A DNA stretch of 64,000 bases from Anaerolineae bacterium (lineage in GTDB: Bacteria > Chloroflexota > Anaerolineae > Aggregatilineales > Phototrophicaceae): the NCBI GenBank assembly GCA_013360465.1, contig JABWBO010000007.1, positions 124,001-188,000 on the forward strand. The letters run 5' to 3'. Numbering within the stretch: position 1 is the stretch's first letter; each line of letters begins with the position of its first letter. This document shows positions 25,106-32,332 of this stretch, one piece after another. The position numbers and the translations under genes were made by a program. The notes beneath the pieces were generated by a model that was not told the origin of the DNA, did no database searches, and saw nothing but the letters and a program-made list of their open reading frames with translations.

Positions 25106-25233
25106 TTAGGCTGTTCCAGACAAAAGACGCGCCAGCGGTTGCACGGGCGAACCCGCGGGTTCGCCCGTGAACGGCGGGCGGAGACACAGCTCCGCCCCTA
25201 CAACTGCTCGATTATTTTCTTGGAACAGCCTTA
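25106..25233. repeat. MITE-like element with terminal inverted repeats and a central palindrome
   Basis: AGGCTGTTCCA (25108-25118) is complementary to TGGAACAGCCT (25221-25231), flanked by TTA on both sides. Inside are a perfect 28-base palindrome (25142-25169, half-site CACGGGCGAACCCG) and a second hairpin GGGCGGAG/CTCCGCCC near 25176-25197. The right repeat overlaps the stop codon of the moeB-type gene (25231-25233). There is no coding capacity. The structure suggests a small non-autonomous element. Confidence 0.55.
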
Positions 25234-26493
25234 GTACATCGGCATAGAAGCATCCACCTCACGCGCCCAAGCGAGGATGCCGCCTTCGACATTGATCAGA
25301 CTCGCCGGGTGGTAGCCCAGGTCACGCAGAGCATAGATCACATCGGTGCTGCGCACGCCGGAACGGCACAGGAACAACACTTCGCGGTCGCGCGGAATCT
25401 GACCGATCACCGTATCTTCGATGGGCTTGCGCCCGGACAGCACTTCGTCCACCGCGATCATGATCTGCGGCTTAGGGATGAGTACCGTGTTTTCCAGCGC
25501 CGCAATCTCCAGTTCCGGTGGGTTACGCACGTCGATGATCACCGGGGACTCCCCTTGATCCAAGCGTGCCTTCAGCGCCAGTGCGGTGATCTGCGGCACA
25601 GGGGCGTCGGCGTCGAACGCCTCTTCCGCAGTGGAAAGGGCTTCGGCAGGCGCATGATCGTGCGCCGGAACGCCGCAGAATTCCTCGTAATCGATCAGCT
25701 CAACCTGATCTGCCGGGATGCTGCATACCGGGCACTTGGGGTTTTTGCGCACCTTGATGGTGGTGAAGCTCACCTCCAGCGCATCGTAGAGCAGCATTCG
25801 CCCGATCATCGGGTCGCCGATGCCGGTCAGCAGCTTGACGGCTTCGGTCGCCTGCATCGTCCCGATGGTGCCGGGCAGCACGCCCAGCACGCCCGCCTCG
25901 GCGCAGTTCGGCACCAGACCGGGCGGCGGCGGTTCCGGGAACATGCAGCGATAGCAGGGACCTTCCTGGGCGTAGAATACGCTGAGCTGCCCCTCAAAGC
26001 GCAGAATGCTTCCGTAAACGTTGGGTTTGCCCAGTTTGACGCAGGCGTCATTGACCAGATAGCGCGTCGGAAAGTTGTCGGTCCCGTCGATCACCAGATC
26101 ATACGGGGCGATGATTTCAAGCGCGTTGTCCGAAGTCAGCGGCACATCGTAGCGGACGATCTCCAGGAAGGGGTTGAGGTCATTCAGGCGACGCTCGGCG
26201 CTTTCCGTCTTGCTGACCCCAACCGTACTCTGCCCGTGAATGATCTGCCGCTGAAGATTGCTTTCATCCACAATATCGTAATCGACCAAGCCCAAGCGTC
26301 CAACGCCGGCGGCAGCGAGATAGAGCGCCAGCGGGCTGCCCAGCCCACCGGTGCCGACGATCAGAACGCTCGATGCCTTCAGCCGGCGCTGCGCCTCCAT
26401 GCCGAACTCCGGCATGATCAGGTGACGCCCGTAGCGGCGGATTTCGTCGTTCGACAGGTCTCCCAGGTCGGAAACTATCGGTTTCATGCTCAT
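25231..26493 (-). CDS. MoeB/ThiF-like E1 adenylyltransferase fused to rhodanese (candidate HcyF)
   Basis: 420 residues. The N-terminal adenylation domain has the ATP loop VGTGGLGSPLALYLAAAG, DNFPTRYLVND, and the two CxxC zinc pairs (CYRCMF and CPVC). The C-terminal rhodanese domain (about 300-418) ends with the active-site loop LFLCRSGVRSTDVI. Proteins of this layout adenylate the C-terminal glycine of a ubiquitin-like sulfur carrier and load sulfur on it. In this operon the likely partner is the ThiS/MoaD-like protein at 27396-27671. The only carrier and the only E1 in the window are therefore together, as the last and fourth genes of a cluster. Confidence 0.9.
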   Translation of the reverse strand: MSMKPIVSDLGDLSNDEIRRYGRHLIMPEFGMEAQRRLKASSVLIVGTGGLGSPLALYLAAAGVGRLGLVDYDIVDESNLQRQIIHGQSTVGVSKTESAERRLNDLNPFLEIVRYDVPLTSDNALEIIAPYDLVIDGTDNFPTRYLVNDACVKLGKPNVYGSILRFEGQLSVFYAQEGPCYRCMFPEPPPPGLVPNCAEAGVLGVLPGTIGTMQATEAVKLLTGIGDPMIGRMLLYDALEVSFTTIKVRKNPKCPVCSIPADQVELIDYEEFCGVPAHDHAPAEALSTAEEAFDADAPVPQITALALKARLDQGESPVIIDVRNPPELEIAALENTVLIPKPQIMIAVDEVLSGRKPIEDTVIGQIPRDREVLFLCRSGVRSTDVIYALRDLGYHPASLINVEGGILAWAREVDASMPMY

Positions 26494-26505
26494 CCTTTTC
26501 GTCGT

Positions 26506-26910
26506 CTAACGGACGGTGGTCCTCAAAGAGGAAAGCTGGCGTTTCAGCTTTTCGAAGTCGGCGACGCCGTGATTCACGGCATGGGTCTTACCCGCGCTGT
26601 CGATGATGAAGGTCGTCGGGGCGGAGATCACGCCCCAGCGATCTGCCGCTTCCGGCTGCTCGGTCGCATCGACGCGCACCACCGAGACCGAAACTTCCTG
26701 CTGAAGACGGTTCAGCGCCGGAAGCTGCATCGTCCGGCAGGGAATACACATCGGGGTTGTGAAGTACAGGATGACCGGCATACCGTTAGGAACGCCCGCT
26801 AGAAGGGGGTCGCCCTGTGCAGGGCGCGCCAGCTGCGCCCGCACGTACAGGTGATAGACTGCATACCCTACTGCAAGGAGCGCAAGGGCGATCAGCAGAC
26901 GTTCAATCAT
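26506..26910 (-). CDS. Membrane-anchored thioredoxin-like protein
   Basis: 134 residues from the ATG at 26910 (MIERLLIALALLAVGYAVYHLYV, an N-terminal membrane anchor). The thioredoxin fold follows with VILYFTTPMCIPCRTMQLP, an active site CIPC, and the cis-proline segment VISAPTTFIID. The start overlaps the DUF4395 stop by four bases, and the E1 gene begins 12 bases after its stop. It is probably a thiol-disulfide reductant for a sulfur transfer step at the membrane; that role is inferred from the operon. Confidence 0.85.
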   Translation of the reverse strand: MIERLLIALALLAVGYAVYHLYVRAQLARPAQGDPLLAGVPNGMPVILYFTTPMCIPCRTMQLPALNRLQQEVSVSVVRVDATEQPEAADRWGVISAPTTFIIDSAGKTHAVNHGVADFEKLKRQLSSLRTTVR

Positions 26911-27374
26911 GGCTGCTCCGCTCTCAGGCGCGCCTGAGTAAAACCGGGGATACCCAGGCGGTTGAACTGGTAGTACATCCAGCACCCGGCACAGAAATTC
27001 AGCCAGAAATTGAGGTTTGCCAGGGCGATCACGATCCAGACCGGAATCCAGCCCGCCCCACTGCCGCCGAGCAGCAGCAGGAAGCCGATGCTGTTAAAGA
27101 TCGCGCCGAGCAGCATAGCGAAGCGGTGCGGTTCAGGATTATCGGCGATGACGCGCGGGCGCGCGATGCCGCTCGGCTTGACCACATTCTGGTAGAACAG
27201 CCGGTAAGGCGCGAGCGGCAGATCAAGCGCGCCGGCAAGCTGCGCCACCGCCACGACCAGGACCAGAAGTAGGCTGTCCAGGACGAAAGCAAGCAGCAGG
27301 AGCGCGATGGTCAGCGCCTGACCGACTTTGAGACCTGTTTGATCGACTTTGCGAAGCGCGGCAGAGTTCGCCAT
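26907..27374 (-). CDS. DUF4395 membrane protein
   Basis: 155 residues, with about four membrane helices: VGQALTIALLLLAFVLDSLL, LVVAVAQLAGALDL, FAMLLGAIFNSIGFLLLLGG and WIPVWIVIALANLNFWLNFC. The motif NFCAGCWMYYQFNRLGI near the C-terminus contains two cysteines (CAGC) typical of this family. DUF4395 proteins are often encoded next to thioredoxins and sulfurtransferases; a disulfide or persulfide transfer role is a guess. It lies between the sulfur carrier gene (21-base gap) and the thioredoxin gene (overlap). Confidence 0.8.
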   Translation of the reverse strand: MANSAALRKVDQTGLKVGQALTIALLLLAFVLDSLLLVLVVAVAQLAGALDLPLAPYRLFYQNVVKPSGIARPRVIADNPEPHRFAMLLGAIFNSIGFLLLLGGSGAGWIPVWIVIALANLNFWLNFCAGCWMYYQFNRLGIPGFTQARLRAEQP

Positions 27375-27395: not shown

Positions 27396-27671
27396 TTAAC
27401 CGGCGCCGCCGGCGATGCTGGGGATGATGCGCAGGCTGTCGCCCTCCTCCAGGTTGGTCTCCAGCCCATCCAGAAAGCGAACGTCCTCGTCGCCCAGATA
27501 GACGTTGACGAAGCTGCGCAGGGTTTCGCCGTCGTAGAGGTGCTGCCGCAGCTCTGGAAAGCGGACAGTCAGGTTGGACAGAGCTTCACCGACGGTCGCG
27601 CCGCCGACCTGCACCTGCGCCTCATTGCTGGTGAAGGCGCGAAGCGGTGTCGGAATACGGATGTTGGGCAT
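27396..27671 (-). CDS. ThiS/MoaD-like sulfur carrier ending GG-AG (candidate HcyS)
   Basis: 91 residues with the ubiquitin-like fold pattern (MPNIRIPTPLRAFTSNEAQV, GATVGEALSNLTVRFPELRQHLY, SFVNVYLGDEDVRFL, NLEEGDSLRIIPSIAGGAG). The C-terminus reads SIAGGAG, so two residues (Ala-Gly) follow the di-glycine; I checked the final codons on the minus strand. Sulfur carriers need a terminal GG for adenylation, so processing is expected, and a JAMM protease is encoded in the same operon. MoaD and ThiS proper end in GG. A role in homocysteine rather than molybdopterin synthesis is inferred from metX and metY. Confidence 0.88.
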   Translation of the reverse strand: MPNIRIPTPLRAFTSNEAQVQVGGATVGEALSNLTVRFPELRQHLYDGETLRSFVNVYLGDEDVRFLDGLETNLEEGDSLRIIPSIAGGAG

Positions 27672-27693: not shown

Positions 27694-28875
27694 TCACTCT
27701 ACTGGCAAATTGCTGTTGGTGATCGTCCACATCTCGCTCAGGTAACCGCCGACCACATTGGTCATGAGGTCCACCTCGACCAGGAACGAGTCGTGCCCGA
27801 AATCGGCATGAATCAGGTGGTAGCGCACGTCTCGACCGACAGCTTCCAGTGCCGTCACCAGATCAAGCGCCTGCTCTGGCGTGTACAGCCAGTCGCTCGA
27901 AAAACTGACCACCAGAAATCTGGCTTTGGCGACGCGCAGGGCGTCAGCAAGTGTGGGCGCGCCTTCGCCGATGTCGAAGTAGTCGCACGCCTTGGTGATG
28001 TACAGATAGCTGTTGGCGTCGAAGCGCTTGAGGAACTTCTCACCCTGATATTTGAGATAGCTTTCGACCGTATATTCCGGATCGACGAGCTGATACGGCA
28101 GAGCGTCGTAGTTTTGCAGACGCCGCCCAAACTTCTGTTCCAGCGAGTGTTCGCTCATGTAGGTGATATGCCCCACCATGCGCGCTACCGCCAGACCGCC
28201 CACCGGCGGCTCTGTGTCGTAGTAGTCGCCGTCGTTCCAACGCGGATCGGCATAGATCGCCTGCCGCCCGATCTCGTTGAAGGCGACGTTCTGCGCCGAA
28301 GAGCGCGGCGTACTGGCGAGGAACAGGCAGTGTCCGACCATTTCGGGATACTCGACCGCCCACTGAAGCGCCTGCATGCCGCCCAGACTGCCCCCGGCGA
28401 CCGCGAAAAGCGCATCAATGCCGAGATGATCGAGCAGCTGGCGCTGCGCCCGCACCATATCCTGAACCGTCACTGCCGGAAAACGCCGCCCATAGGGTTT
28501 GCCATCAGGGGCGCGCGACGAAGGACCGGTGCTGCCCTGGCATCCGCCGATGACGTTAGAGCAGATCACGAAAAAGCGGTTGGTATCGAACATCTTGCCC
28601 GGACCCACCGCTTCATCCCACCACCCCGGTTTCTCAGCCGGGTCATCCGTATAGTAGCCTGCCACGTGCGAGTCACCGGTCAGGGCATGACAGATCAGGA
28701 TGGCATTCGAGCCATCATCGTTGAGCGTTCCGTAGGTTTCGTAGGCGAGCGTGTAACGTTCCAGAGTCCTGCCGCATCGCAGGTGCAGCGGCTTATTGAA
28801 GTGAGCGGACTGCCGCTTCACCACTCCAACCGAGCCGTTCTGATTACGGTGCGGTTTTGCTCCGTTGAACGTCAT
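27694..28875 (-). CDS. metX: Homoserine O-acetyltransferase
   Basis: 393 residues from the ATG at 28875 (MTFNGAKPH). An alpha/beta hydrolase-fold acyltransferase that activates homoserine as O-acetylhomoserine. The nucleophile elbow is AVAGGSLGGMQALQWA, with SSNVIGGCQGSTGPSS upstream, and the Asp/His parts lie in FSSDWLYTPEQ and HADFGHDSFLVE, all typical of MetX. The upstream open frame to 29049 overlaps metY and does not resemble the family. It is separated from metY by a 113-base gap containing a 30-base palindrome. Confidence 0.93.
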   Translation of the reverse strand: MTFNGAKPHRNQNGSVGVVKRQSAHFNKPLHLRCGRTLERYTLAYETYGTLNDDGSNAILICHALTGDSHVAGYYTDDPAEKPGWWDEAVGPGKMFDTNRFFVICSNVIGGCQGSTGPSSRAPDGKPYGRRFPAVTVQDMVRAQRQLLDHLGIDALFAVAGGSLGGMQALQWAVEYPEMVGHCLFLASTPRSSAQNVAFNEIGRQAIYADPRWNDGDYYDTEPPVGGLAVARMVGHITYMSEHSLEQKFGRRLQNYDALPYQLVDPEYTVESYLKYQGEKFLKRFDANSYLYITKACDYFDIGEGAPTLADALRVAKARFLVVSFSSDWLYTPEQALDLVTALEAVGRDVRYHLIHADFGHDSFLVEVDLMTNVVGGYLSEMWTITNSNLPVE

Positions 28876-28909
28876 CGCTCCAATGACCTTTCGACCACCA
28901 ACTGCCAGA

Positions 28910-28939
28910 GGAAAGTGCGGGCGCGCGCCCGCACTTTCC
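28910..28939. other. Perfect 30-base palindrome between metY and metX
   Basis: Bases 28910-28924 are exactly complementary to 28925-28939 (half-site GGAAAGTGCGGGCGC). No T-run follows on the minus strand, so it is not an obvious intrinsic terminator. It may be an mRNA hairpin setting metY/metX ratios or a repeat. Confidence 0.6.
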
Positions 28940-28988
28940 CATCTTAGCGTATGTCCGCCGTTCTGCACGGGCGAATTCGGAGCGCCGG

Positions 28989-30305
28989 CTACGACACGGA
29001 ATGCACAGTGACACCCTGCGAAACGGTCAGCGCCTGATCGAGATCCCACAGAATGTCGTTGATGTCCTCAATGCCGACGGCAAGACGGATGTAGTCGTCT
29101 GTGACGCCCGTCGTCGCCTGTTCTTCCCCTGAAAGCTGACTGTGGGTGGTGCTTGCCGGGTGAATCGCCAGCGAGCGCGCGTCGCCGACATTTGCCAGAT
29201 GGCTGAACAGCTTCAGGTTGTCGATGAACGCCCGTCCAGCCTGTCTGCCGCCCTTGATGCCGAAGCCGACCACCGCACCTGCCCCCTTGGGCATGTACTT
29301 CCGGGCACGCTCATAGCTGGGATGGCTGGGTAGACCGGGATAATTCACCCACGCCACCGCGCCGTGTTCGCTCAACCACTGAGCAACGGCGAGCGCATTG
29401 CTGACATGCTTCTGCATACGCAGCGAGAGCGTCTCCAAGCCGATGATGTTAAGGAAACTGTTGAACGGCGCCTGGCTGCCGCCGAAATCGCGCAGACCGA
29501 CAACCCGCGCCCGACCAATAAACGCCGCTGCCCCCAGGACATCGGCGATGACCGCGCCGTGATACGCCTCTTCCGGTTGGACGATGCCGCGATGCCGACC
29601 GCTCGCCTTCCAGTCGAAAGTCCCGCCGTCGATGATCACGCCGCCGATGCTCAAACCGTGCCCGCCGATCCATTTGGTGGTCGAATGCAGGCTGATGTTG
29701 ATGCCCCACTTGAAAGGCTGGAAGAGATAGGGGGTCCCAAAGGTGTTATCGACCACGACGGGGATCTTGTGCTGCCGAGCGACCGCGACAATCGCTTCAA
29801 AATCGGGGATCTCCAGCTTCGGGTTGCCGATGGTTTCCAGGTAGATCAGGCGGGTCTTGTCATTAATCAGCGCTTCGATCCGGTTAGGATCGGCATTCTC
29901 GACGAAGTGCGCCTTGATGTTCAGATGACGCAGACTATGCGAGAACAGCGTATAAGTGCCGCCGTAGAGCGCCGATGTGGAGATGAATTCGTCGCCGGCG
30001 TCAGCGAGCGTCAGGATGGCGAGAGTCTCAGCAAACTGCCCCGACGAGGTGGTCAGCGCGCCGATGCCGCCTTCCAGCGCCGCGATGCGCTGTTCAAAGA
30101 CATCGTTGGTCGGGTTCATGATGCGGGTGTAGATGTTGCCCGGTTCCGCCAGCGCGAACAACGCTGCCGCGTGATCGGTATCGCGGAACTGATATGATGT
30201 GGTCTGGTAGATTGGCACAGCGCGGGCGTTAGTCGTCGGGTCCGGGCTGTAGCCGGCATGCAGGGCGAGGGTATCGAAACTGTGCTGGTGTCCGTTGGCG
30301 CTCAT
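28989..30305 (-). CDS. metY: O-acetylhomoserine sulfhydrylase
   Basis: 438 residues of the Cys/Met-metabolism PLP family. The N-terminal THALHAGYSPDPTTNARAVPIYQTTSY, the cofactor region TSSGQFAETLAIL and the PLP lysine in ISLHSTTKWIGGHG identify it. The IxxTxxTHxxL type ending (ATTHSQLSGEEQATTGV) is characteristic of OAH sulfhydrylases. It converts O-acetylhomoserine plus a sulfur donor to homocysteine. With a carrier and E1 in the operon, the donor may be a protein thiocarboxylate rather than free sulfide. Confidence 0.93.
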   Translation of the reverse strand: MSANGHQHSFDTLALHAGYSPDPTTNARAVPIYQTTSYQFRDTDHAAALFALAEPGNIYTRIMNPTNDVFEQRIAALEGGIGALTTSSGQFAETLAILTLADAGDEFISTSALYGGTYTLFSHSLRHLNIKAHFVENADPNRIEALINDKTRLIYLETIGNPKLEIPDFEAIVAVARQHKIPVVVDNTFGTPYLFQPFKWGINISLHSTTKWIGGHGLSIGGVIIDGGTFDWKASGRHRGIVQPEEAYHGAVIADVLGAAAFIGRARVVGLRDFGGSQAPFNSFLNIIGLETLSLRMQKHVSNALAVAQWLSEHGAVAWVNYPGLPSHPSYERARKYMPKGAGAVVGFGIKGGRQAGRAFIDNLKLFSHLANVGDARSLAIHPASTTHSQLSGEEQATTGVTDDYIRLAVGIEDINDILWDLDQALTVSQGVTVHSVS

Positions 30306-30359: not shown

Positions 30360-30785
30360 TTATTCGACCGACAGAGTATCGGCGGTAAACGCTTGCCGGT
30401 CGTCCTGCAAGCGCCACGCCAGCATCTCGCGCGCGCCATCCGGCATCACCGAGGTGATCAGATAAGCGAAGTTCGGCAGCGCATGATCCCGGTCGTAAAG
30501 CGACGGAATCGCCGGCGAATTCGGGTGGCTGTGGTAGTACCCCACCAGGCTCAGACCACGAGCGTCGGCGGCATCTTCCAGGCGCATCCAATCAACGGGC
30601 GTCATAGCGTAGCGATGGTAGCGTTCTGTCGGCTCAAAGACGTTCTCGACCGGCACAACTCCCGCGATGCTGACAATATCATCGCGGAGTGAACCGAGCA
30701 GGAAGCCGCCGGCTTCATCGGGGTGAGCCGCCTCCAACTGATGGATAATTTGCTGCTTCAGGGTCTGCGTTAGGATAACCTTCAT
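30360..30785 (-). CDS. JAMM/MPN-domain metalloprotease (candidate HcyD, Mec+-like)
   Basis: 141 residues from the ATG at 30785 (MKVILTQTLKQQI), with GGAG five bases upstream. The JAMM zinc motif is complete: YYHSHPNSPAIPSLYDRD gives H-x-H-x7-S-x-x-D, and the upstream glutamate lies in PDEAGGFLLG. JAMM enzymes cleave peptide or isopeptide bonds after the GG of ubiquitin-like proteins. Bacterial Mec+ releases cysteine from its carrier; the metY/metX context here suggests homocysteine release and/or trimming of the GG-AG tail. It is the first gene of the seven-gene operon, after the Cys/Met leader. Confidence 0.88.
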   Translation of the reverse strand: MKVILTQTLKQQIIHQLEAAHPDEAGGFLLGSLRDDIVSIAGVVPVENVFEPTERYHRYAMTPVDWMRLEDAADARGLSLVGYYHSHPNSPAIPSLYDRDHALPNFAYLITSVMPDGAREMLAWRLQDDRQAFTADTLSVE

Positions 30786-30805
30786 GCACACTCCAGCCGT
30801 TGCGC

Positions 30806-30845
30806 CAAATAAAAAGAGCCAGTTCCTCATCGGAACTGGCTCTCG
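30806..30845 (-). terminator. Intrinsic terminator / candidate attenuator of the met operon
   Basis: AGAGCCAGTTCC pairs perfectly with GGAACTGGCTCT (30815-30826 and 30832-30843; loop of five). On the minus strand it is followed by TTTTTATTTGG. It lies downstream of the Cys/Met ORF stop (30871) and 30 bases upstream of the JAMM gene start, so it can end transcription before the operon. The upstream segment 30878-30889 could form an alternative pairing with the 5' arm. Confidence 0.8.
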
Positions 30846-30870
30846 ACCTGCAAAAATCTGGAAAGGTCTG

Positions 30871-30990
30871 CTACTCTGCCTGACGTTCCGGTGAGGACGT
30901 TTTCGTGACGCAACACATCATGCCGCCGCACATGACCATGGGGCAGTTCGCGCAGAAAACACCGGAAAGTTTCAAAGCAGTGTAAGTCAT
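30871..30990 (-). CDS. Cys/Met-rich 39-residue leader peptide
   Basis: The ORF reads MTYTALKLSGVF, then CANCPMVMCGGMMCC, then VTKTSSPERQAE. Five Cys and four Met codons fall within residues 13-27, followed directly by a small hairpin, a complementary segment and the terminator, in front of a methionine/sulfur operon. The layout matches amino-acid attenuation leaders. No Shine-Dalgarno is visible before the ATG at 30990. TTGCGC-17-TAGTTT places a possible transcription start at the ATG itself, so a leaderless start is possible; a GTG at 31017 is an in-frame alternative. A free-standing metal-binding microprotein is the other explanation. Confidence 0.6.
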   Translation of the reverse strand: MTYTALKLSGVFCANCPMVMCGGMMCCVTKTSSPERQAE

Positions 30991-31072
30991 AGAAATAAAA
31001 CTAGCATGGTTTGGCACATTGCGCAAGCGCCGATTCAGCGCCTTAAAGGTTTTTAATCTCACACCAACCCCG

Positions 31073-31101
31073 TTGTTGTGCGTCGTCGGGGATGTTATAC
31101 T
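31073..31101 (+). promoter_or_regulatory. Predicted promoter of citrate synthase
   Basis: TTGTTG at 31073-31078 and TATACT at 31096-31101 are separated by 17 bases, 89 bases before the gene. Confidence 0.5.
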
Positions 31102-31189
31102 CCCTGCACTTTTGTGAATTCTAGCACGACTCCGGTTTTTCTCTTCGGCTGCGAAGTTCTTTAGGGCATTCACGCACAAGGAGTAAGTA

Positions 31190-32332
31190 ATGGTCCAGGC
31201 AAAGAAAGGATTGGACGGCGTTTCCATCGGGGACAGCCGGCTGAGTCTCGTCAATGGCACTGAAGGTAAGCTGATCTACGCCGGCTACAAGATCGAAGAT
31301 CTGGCAGCCAATGCGCTCTACGAAGAGGTGGTTTACCTCTTGTGGAACGGGCGTCTGCCCAATGCAGTCGAGCTTGAAGAACTTCGCGCAGCCCTGTCCG
31401 TCCAGGGCGTCGTCCCAGCGGAAGTCCTCCAGCAGATGAAAAGCTATCCGAAGAGCGCCAACCCGATGGCAGTGCTGCGCACTTCGACTTCGGCGCTGGC
31501 ATTCTATGACCCGGACAGCGAAGACACCGGCATCGAGGCACAGAAGCGCAAGGCGCTGCGCATGACCGGACAGGTCACCACACTGACCGCCGCATGGTAT
31601 CGCATCCGTCAGGGCTTGGAACCGATCTCGCCTCGTAAGGATTTGAACCTGTCGCAGAACTTCATGTACATGCTGACCGGGACGGAGCCAGAGGCAACAG
31701 CCGTTGACGCGGTCAATGCCTACATGGTGCTGCTCACCGAACACAGCATGAACGCCAGCACCTTTTCCTCGCGCGTGGCGACCAGCACCGGCGCGGATAT
31801 GCACAGCGCTGTCGTCGCAGCTATCGGCACGCTCAAGGGACCGGCGCACGGCGGCGCTAACGAAGAAGCGATGCGCATGTTCATGGAGATCGCCGAGGTC
31901 GCTAACGTCGAACCCTGGTTCAACGAGAATATCAAGTCGGGCAAGCGCCGTATCATGGGCATCGGACACCGCGTCTATAAGGCGCTCGACCCACGTGCTG
32001 CCGTCCTGCGCGAACGCGCTGCGGCGCTGTCCAGGGCCTCGGGTAATACGAAGTGGTTCGAAATTGCCGATCAGCTGGCGAATCTGGCGCGCGCCGACCA
32101 GTACTTCATCGAGCGCAATCTGTACCCGAATGTCGATTATTTCAGCGCTATTGTCCTGTACACGCTGAACCTCGATGTCGATATGTTCACCCCGCTCTTC
32201 GCTATGAGCCGCATGGCGGGCTGGACTGCACATATCATCGAACAGCAAACCGATAACCGGTTGATTCGCCCCACCGCCGACTACGTCGGACCGATGGACC
32301 GGCAGTGGGTTCCACTGGATCAGCGTCCGTAA
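31190..32332 (+). CDS. gltA: Citrate synthase
   Basis: 380 residues, the length of the short (archaeal/Gram-positive type) citrate synthases. The catalytic residues are visible: LLTEHSMNASTF (His), GPAHGGANEEA (second His) and DMHSAVVAAIGT plus IMGIGHRVYKALDPRA (His-Arg). The N-terminal KGLDGVSIGDSRLSLVNGTEGKLIYAGYKIEDLA is typical of the family. It condenses acetyl-CoA and oxaloacetate in the TCA cycle; 2-methylcitrate synthase is a close relative and cannot be fully excluded, but no prp genes are nearby. AGGAG lies six bases before the ATG. A terminator follows. Confidence 0.93.
   Translation: MVQAKKGLDGVSIGDSRLSLVNGTEGKLIYAGYKIEDLAANALYEEVVYLLWNGRLPNAVELEELRAALSVQGVVPAEVLQQMKSYPKSANPMAVLRTSTSALAFYDPDSEDTGIEAQKRKALRMTGQVTTLTAAWYRIRQGLEPISPRKDLNLSQNFMYMLTGTEPEATAVDAVNAYMVLLTEHSMNASTFSSRVATSTGADMHSAVVAAIGTLKGPAHGGANEEAMRMFMEIAEVANVEPWFNENIKSGKRRIMGIGHRVYKALDPRAAVLRERAAALSRASGNTKWFEIADQLANLARADQYFIERNLYPNVDYFSAIVLYTLNLDVDMFTPLFAMSRMAGWTAHIIEQQTDNRLIRPTADYVGPMDRQWVPLDQRP

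Follow-up and report, generated by a model that had tools for sequence, protein, structure and literature searches.

Protein-thiocarboxylate routes of cysteine/methionine synthesis are represented by CysO-CysM-Mec of M. tuberculosis and by HcyS-HcyD of Wolinella. Classical attenuators of the trp/his type have cognate codons in a short ORF, together with an intrinsic terminator and an alternative antiterminator structure. A passage of PMC9413887 summarizes the his attenuator. The leaderless polycysteine upstream ORFs (uORFs) of mycobacteria (Canestrari et al. 2020), as presented in passages of PMC9031893 and PMC13236596, are described as having a translational effect, and a passage of Shell et al. 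2015 (PMC4633059) is a further source on these ORFs. In a passage of PMC1262725, which bears on actinobacterial Cys leaders, no conserved terminator hairpin is reported to have been found upstream of the mycobacterial cys operons. The uORFC-8-2 motif located upstream of cysS in Rhodobacterales carries tandem Cys codons in a uORF, and then an intrinsic terminator (PMC8632094, in the passage that describes the motif). No leader-peptide attenuator from Chloroflexota was found among the matches listed by searches of the open literature, which gave titles and the beginnings of abstracts, and a search for a methionine-codon attenuator matched only a review on pyrrolysine systems. Here we describe a leader from this phylum that, as judged by sequence comparison, very probably acts as a ribosome-mediated transcription attenuator of a JAB-metY-metX-thiS-DUF4395-trx-thiF operon.

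The leader ORF, its promoter and the operon behind it

The window, i.e., the whole stretch of 64,000 nucleotides that was analysed, belongs to a 5.9 Mb assembly of 256 contigs from an Anaerolineae bacterium, and its relevant features are collected in Table 1. From gene context, the operon is read as a protein-thiocarboxylate route to homocysteine/methionine, serving cysteine/methionine synthesis, in which the JAB protein is presumably Mec/HcyD-like and the ThiS-family carrier is taken to be CysO/HcyS-like. The true start of the metX-like gene is probably downstream of 29049. The carrier C-terminus is such that the two residues past GG would need removal, and the JAB peptidase is a plausible remover. 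A citrate synthase gene (31190-32332) is divergent from the leader, at a distance of 200 nt between the two start codons.

Table 1. Features of the leader and of the operon in the window
Feature	Position (strand)	Details
-35 element TTGCGC	31021..31026 (-)	36 nt 5′ of the A in the leader ATG
Extended -10 element TGC-TAGTTT	30998..31006 (-)	Ends 7 nt before the A of ATG; consensus TGnTAnnCT
Leader-peptide ORF, 39 codons	30990-30871 (-)	ATG 30990-30988, stop 30873-30871
Candidate segment 1, TTCCGGTG	30960..30967 (-)	Could sequester the antiterminator segment in ribosome-free RNA; weak in relatives
Cys/Met regulatory codons, CANCPMVMCGGMMCC	30954-30910 (-)	Codons 13-27 of the leader ORF
Antiterminator 5′ strand TCA-C-CGGAAC-GTCA-GGC	30878..30894 (-)	Within the final codons of the leader ORF
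Hairpin GACCT...AGGTC inside the antiterminator	30845..30868 (-)	Predicted fold
Intrinsic terminator hairpin GAGAGCCAGTTCC-GATGA-GGAACTGGCTCTT	30844-30814 (-)	-23.7 kcal/mol
Antiterminator 3′ strand GCC-A-GTTCCG-A-TGA	30827..30840 (-)	Part of the terminator 5′ arm and loop
Shine-Dalgarno GGAG of the JAB gene	30794-30791 (-)	
Prok-JAB metalloprotease, first structural gene	30360..30785 (-)	Pfam; start at 30785
metY-like O-acetylhomoserine sulfhydrylase	28989..30305 (-)	Pfam Cys_Met_Meta_PP; name from context
metX-like homoserine O-acetyltransferase	27694..29049 (-)	Pfam alpha/beta hydrolase; name from context
ThiS-family sulfur carrier	27396..27671 (-)	Pfam ThiS; C-terminus GGAG
DUF4395 protein, thioredoxin-like protein and ThiF-rhodanese protein	25231..27374 (-)	Pfam

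A preliminary description of this DNA had singled out a 39-codon ORF with a Cys/Met block. The peptide encoded by this ORF is MTYTALKLSGVFCANCPMVMCGGMMCCVTKTSSPERQAE, which gave no Pfam match, and of the 15 residues in the block 5 are Cys and 4 are Met. Of 151 genomes, counting the own one, 125 had JAB; 117 of these loci were read, and the remaining 8 genomes had only a distant JAB match (best E 3e-8 to 1e-11). A loose test, which asked for an ATG ORF that had 3 or more Cys within 12 residues, was positive for 82 of 104 upstream regions, the own genome among them (13 further loci were cut by contig ends), versus 2 of 104 reverse-complement controls. A promoter rule, which was drawn up after leaders had been seen, demanded TTG, TANNNT and ATG at fixed spacing (34-37 from TTG to ATG) and ignored composition. 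In 83 of the 117 loci, this rule selected an ORF ahead of JAB, and each of these leaders had 2-7 Cys; of 34 control ORFs that it selected at other places in these loci, 7 had at least 2 Cys and 4 had at least 3. The leaders also exceeded these 34 controls in residue content, both for Cys (12.6% versus 3.7%) and for Met (7.9% versus 2.6%). In the 83 leaders, TGY triplets were found in frame at 13.0% and at 6.8% and 3.9% in the other frames, the corresponding values for ATG triplets being 8.2%, 1.1% and 1.1%, and CC or CxC is present in 78/83 of the peptides. For two loci (L091 and L122) the looser listing had a second candidate farther upstream with no Cys, and the gene-proximal one was used. 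The loci that lacked a promoter-selected ORF numbered 34; cysM comes first in 18 of them, and the sequence of three is cut off within 200 nt. Within the family of the window, the comparison with relatives did not refute the earlier proposal: the leader was kept in 76 of 80 testable genomes (69 by the looser test and 7 by the promoter rule only); the operon was present without it in 4/80, and 4 further genomes were cut by a contig end. ORF, codon run and promoter position are established by comparison.

A functional small peptide, Cys/Met-rich and binding a metal or sulfur, could account for the several closely spaced Cys and for an ORF that is in frame and conserved in position, the terminator being then merely an ordinary upstream or partial one. 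This explanation is very improbable. Across loci the Cys/Met run is retained, whereas its spacing varies, as does the remainder of the peptide. Furthermore, the Cys codon preferred in the leaders, TGT (233 of 352), is rare in the long open frames downstream (174 of 814), and the final codons of the ORF also serve as a pairing segment of the RNA (see below).

The preliminary description had seen no Shine-Dalgarno sequence and had considered a leaderless ORF possible, and the relatives strengthened this view. The distance from TTG to ATG was 36 in 61 of the 83 leaders, 37 in 14, 35 in 6 and 34 in 2, and the 61 leaders with the commonest spacing gave the consensus TTGC at -36, TGnTAnnCT at -16 to -8 and a pyrimidine at -1, with the A of ATG taken as position 0. 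The base at -1 was C or T in 83/83 leaders, and none of the 83 had any of three kinds of Shine-Dalgarno-like tetramers at positions -16 to -4. From the promoter geometry, which places the A of ATG at +1, the pyrimidine at -1 and the lack of a Shine-Dalgarno sequence, we infer that the leader mRNA is probably leaderless. When a 40-nt promoter model was run on the own genome, the leader was the only match at E<=10 (150 of 268 first-look candidates were scored). Of the 8 congeners, 6 gave a single match each at E<=0.5; for G013 and G001 this match was the leader of a detached metY. This model (R1) revealed no further leader in the own genome, its sensitivity being limited, as seen from the score of the own leader (E 0.15) and from the 2 of 8 congeners that gave nothing at E<=0.5. 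A pattern search of the own genome, which was too strict and missed the leader itself, gave 2 places, and the reversed control gave 6.

The terminator and the alternative pairing

Behind the ORF, where a switchable terminator had been proposed, the hairpin 30844-30814(-) continues into TTTTTATTT and has a T-rich tail (30816-30808, CTTTTTATT). A terminator followed the leader in 80 of 83 loci, at a median of 70 nt past the final Cys codon in the densest block, and was absent in L119, L134 and L139. The same terminator finder detected a hairpin in 18 of 415 dinucleotide shuffles at the weakest real energy, and in 128 of 415 at any energy.

Methionine operons in other phyla are often under the control of SAM riboswitches or T-boxes. 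Hence, the terminator could be run by a riboswitch or a T-box (SAM, tRNA-Cys or similar), with the ORF being secondary. This is hardly probable at all, given that Rfam at the gathering score found only a tmRNA and two tRNAs over the window. With permissive settings, the region 30700-31250 gave one sub-threshold lncRNA match (E 0.77), and the search over 10 related loci gave two sub-threshold matches, both in L218.

The antiterminator segment was found at the place assigned to it in the preliminary description. The complementary pairs are GGAAC (30889-30885) with GTTCC (30836-30832) and GGC (30880-30878) with GCC (30840-30838), and in the predicted fold the helices TCA/TGA, CGGAAC/GTTCCG and GGC/GCC surround one inner hairpin. 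In the window the stability of the terminator (-23.7 kcal/mol) exceeds that of the antiterminator region (-16.8 kcal/mol), so that the switch would need to be kinetic; the antiterminator region was the more stable one in 69/80 loci. Across the 80 loci with a terminator, the antiterminator was analysed as the segment 3′ of the Cys codons that pairs with the terminator 5′ arm and loop. The mean pairing energy was -14.65 kcal/mol with the cognate partner versus -12.4 with the segments of other loci (p 9e-9; the cognate was better than the non-cognate mean in 63/80). As non-cognate partners, up to 40 other loci were drawn at random, with relatives among them. This test was used because the pairing register shifts between species (MAFFT alignments A3 and A4), which makes the alignments unsuited to column-wise covariation. 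The pairing was also stronger than that of dinucleotide shuffles (p 2e-11, n=80), so that an excess of alternative pairing is established by comparison, as is the terminator. The antiterminator reached single-locus significance (p<=0.05) in 27/80, with a median shuffle p of 0.175, and the evidence is statistical, over the set of loci rather than for each locus. Three control segments, one taken in the 5′ part of the ORF, one beyond the terminator and one ahead of the promoter, showed no pairing excess, and a fourth, adjacent to the terminator, paired less than expected. The first antiterminator pair was located 13-26 nt past the last Cys codon in 52/80 loci, nearer in 20 and farther in 8. One or two additional hairpins close to the stop codon are often enclosed by the antiterminator in the 18 folds inspected, and in several of these folds a hairpin spans or adjoins the stop codon.

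A leaderless Cys-rich ORF before sulfur genes is the mycobacterial arrangement (PMC9031893 and PMC13236596, in the passages on these uORFs), and it would fit translational attenuation, in which a stalled ribosome unmasks the Shine-Dalgarno sequence of the first gene and the hairpin is incidental. We regard this as unlikely, because a self-contained hairpin with a T-tract stands ahead of the gene in 80/83, the alternative pairing is aimed at the 5′ arm and loop of that hairpin, and in the window the Shine-Dalgarno sequence is downstream of it.

The preliminary description had also included a small protector stem (30895-30900 with 30883-30889). This element did not prove to be a general part of the leader, as in relatives the Cys block did not pair preferentially with the antiterminator segment (mean z 0.08, p 0.17, n=80). 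The part of the ORF 5′ of the last Cys paired weakly with the antiterminator segment (mean z -0.35, p 0.03; 11/80 below -1.64). In the window, a perfect 8-bp match is present between TTCCGGTG (30967-30960) and CACCGGAA (30893-30886).

In a model of ribosome positions, a stall at the last Cys codon left at least 6 antiterminator pairs in 73/80 loci, a ribosome at the stop codon in 21/80, where the masking removes the pairing partner by construction, and ribosome-free RNA in 47/80; the values for the window were 12, 3 and 0 pairs, respectively. Ribosome-free RNA thus favours the antiterminator in 47/80 loci, and a default-off state is not general. When the pre-terminator segment was shuffled, at least 6 pairs were still obtained in the stalled state in 578/800 cases (mean 7.4 versus 9.9 with the real segments), so that the model, which is weak by itself, adds little to the duplex tests.

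The proposed attenuation would proceed as follows. Transcription would begin on the A of the leader ATG, and a 70S ribosome would load on the 5′ end of the nascent RNA. With enough Cys-tRNA (and also Met-tRNA in most genera), this ribosome would reach the stop codon and cover 30894-30878, and with the antiterminator segment covered, the terminator 30844-30814 would form and end transcription ahead of the operon. When cysteine (or methionine) is scarce, the ribosome would stall in CANCPMVMCGGMMCC, so that the segment about 14 nt past the last Cys codon would be free and could pair with the newly made terminator 5′ arm. Once the antiterminator has been formed, RNA polymerase would enter the JAB-metY-metX-thiS-DUF4395-trx-thiF operon.

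The proposed amino acid signal, the operon types and the distribution of the leader

The preliminary description had tied a Cys/Met leader to the methionine operon. The Cys part of this proposal stood. Met proved variable, and the leaders are not tied to methionine genes, with examples found ahead of JAB-metY, JAB-sseA, JAB-thiS-thiF and JAB-thiS-DUF4395 operons. We conclude that Cys is the constant signal and Met a frequent but variable second one. A tracking of metY by the Met run was considered and rejected: its row-level p was 1e-8 (29 loci with metY/metX versus 52 without, two short-downstream loci left out), but the link vanished when the loci were grouped by genus and operon type and those with <1400 nt downstream were dropped (7 versus 19 groups, p 0.84).

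Detached close metY orthologues (74-82% identity) had their own Cys-rich leader in 6/6 cases (L173-L178), five of them by the promoter rule and L176 by the Cys run only. For 24 metY paralogues of 52-56% identity, a promoter-rule ORF was observed in 0/22 judgeable loci; a short Cys-rich ORF lies 415 nt upstream of the paralogue L202 but is unrelated. In G012 (L218) JAB is preceded by a metY-like gene of about 35% identity, which has a mainly Cys leader (MSSFSVMCCACCCLCRQ...), and the closer metY of G012 lies elsewhere (L178), with the leader AAAMCCCMCCMM.

The promoter rule picked no leader upstream of cysM in the 18 cysM-JAB loci. A short Cys-rich leader was nonetheless present upstream of cysM in 8/18 (L108, L110, L208-L210 and L212-L214) and a weaker candidate in 4 (L205, L206, L215 and L217); 5/18 had no leader (L203, L204, L207, L211 and L216), and L142 was cut by the contig end. 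The cysM-type leader, e.g., MNTMRQNCMCCMCEKRGR, is a second, shorter architecture in another family, with a promoter that misfits the rule. Inspection by eye showed that in L208 and L110 the Cys run is followed by GGGGACG or GGGGCG, with a complementary CGTCCC farther on, and that GAGCG is complementary to CGCTC in L108.

JAB is present in 86 genomes among 301 of the phylum. In 20 loci from other orders and classes among these 86 (5 kb upstream of each), no promoter-plus-Cys leader was found, and none of a further 20 upstream regions (nine genomes shared with the first sample) had the promoter. Short Cys-rich ORFs occur within 400 nt in L321 (three of them) and >1 kb away in six other regions (one each). 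On the sample examined, the leader appears to be confined to the order of the window. Three loci from assemblies titled Bacteroidetes, Proteobacteria and Pleurocapsa minor (L234, L268 and L285) carry a JAB of the Anaerolineae clade, which suggests mislabelled or contaminated assemblies.

Comparison with known systems

We consider it reasonably probable that these leaders constitute a clade-wide, undescribed Chloroflexota attenuator without a 5′ UTR, in which transcription start, ribosome loading and amino-acid sensing would come together on one base, and in which a single ribosome, reading Cys always and Met often, would gate protein-thiocarboxylate sulfur assimilation via a multi-helix antiterminator around the stop codon. 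If true, this would be the first amino-acid leader-peptide attenuator in the phylum, as far as open-literature searches reach, and it would join leaderless translation to intrinsic termination. Ribosomes would then load on the emerging 5′ AUG quickly enough to control a terminator that starts 146 nt downstream, and leaderless initiation together with transcription-translation coupling would become directly testable. In addition, JAB/ThiS/DUF4395 operons would be linked to Cys/Met need, and a simple finding rule would be available for uncultured genomes.

The leader shares with the mycobacterial polycysteine uORFs, in so far as these are described in the passages cited above, a probably leaderless start, the run of Cys codons, the sulfur/cysteine genes downstream and Cys-dependent elongation as the proposed signal. 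It differs from those descriptions by the intrinsic terminator (80/83) with its antiterminator, by the common Met codons and by the Chloroflexota host. With the trp/his-type attenuators it has in common an ORF with cognate codons, an intrinsic terminator, an antiterminator and a stall position 5′ of the antiterminator strand, but it has no Shine-Dalgarno sequence and apparently no 5′ UTR, no conserved protector hairpin was found, and two amino acids are involved. The uORFC-8-2 motif, in contrast, has cysteinyl-tRNA synthetase as its target, belongs to Alphaproteobacteria and has its Cys codons within a stem, and the passage that describes it mentions no Met run. Finally, the operon resembles the CysO-CysM-Mec and HcyS-HcyD systems in that a JAB peptidase, a ThiS carrier, a ThiF activator and a PLP sulfhydrylase are found together, and it differs from them by the added DUF4395 and thioredoxin genes and by the leader in front.
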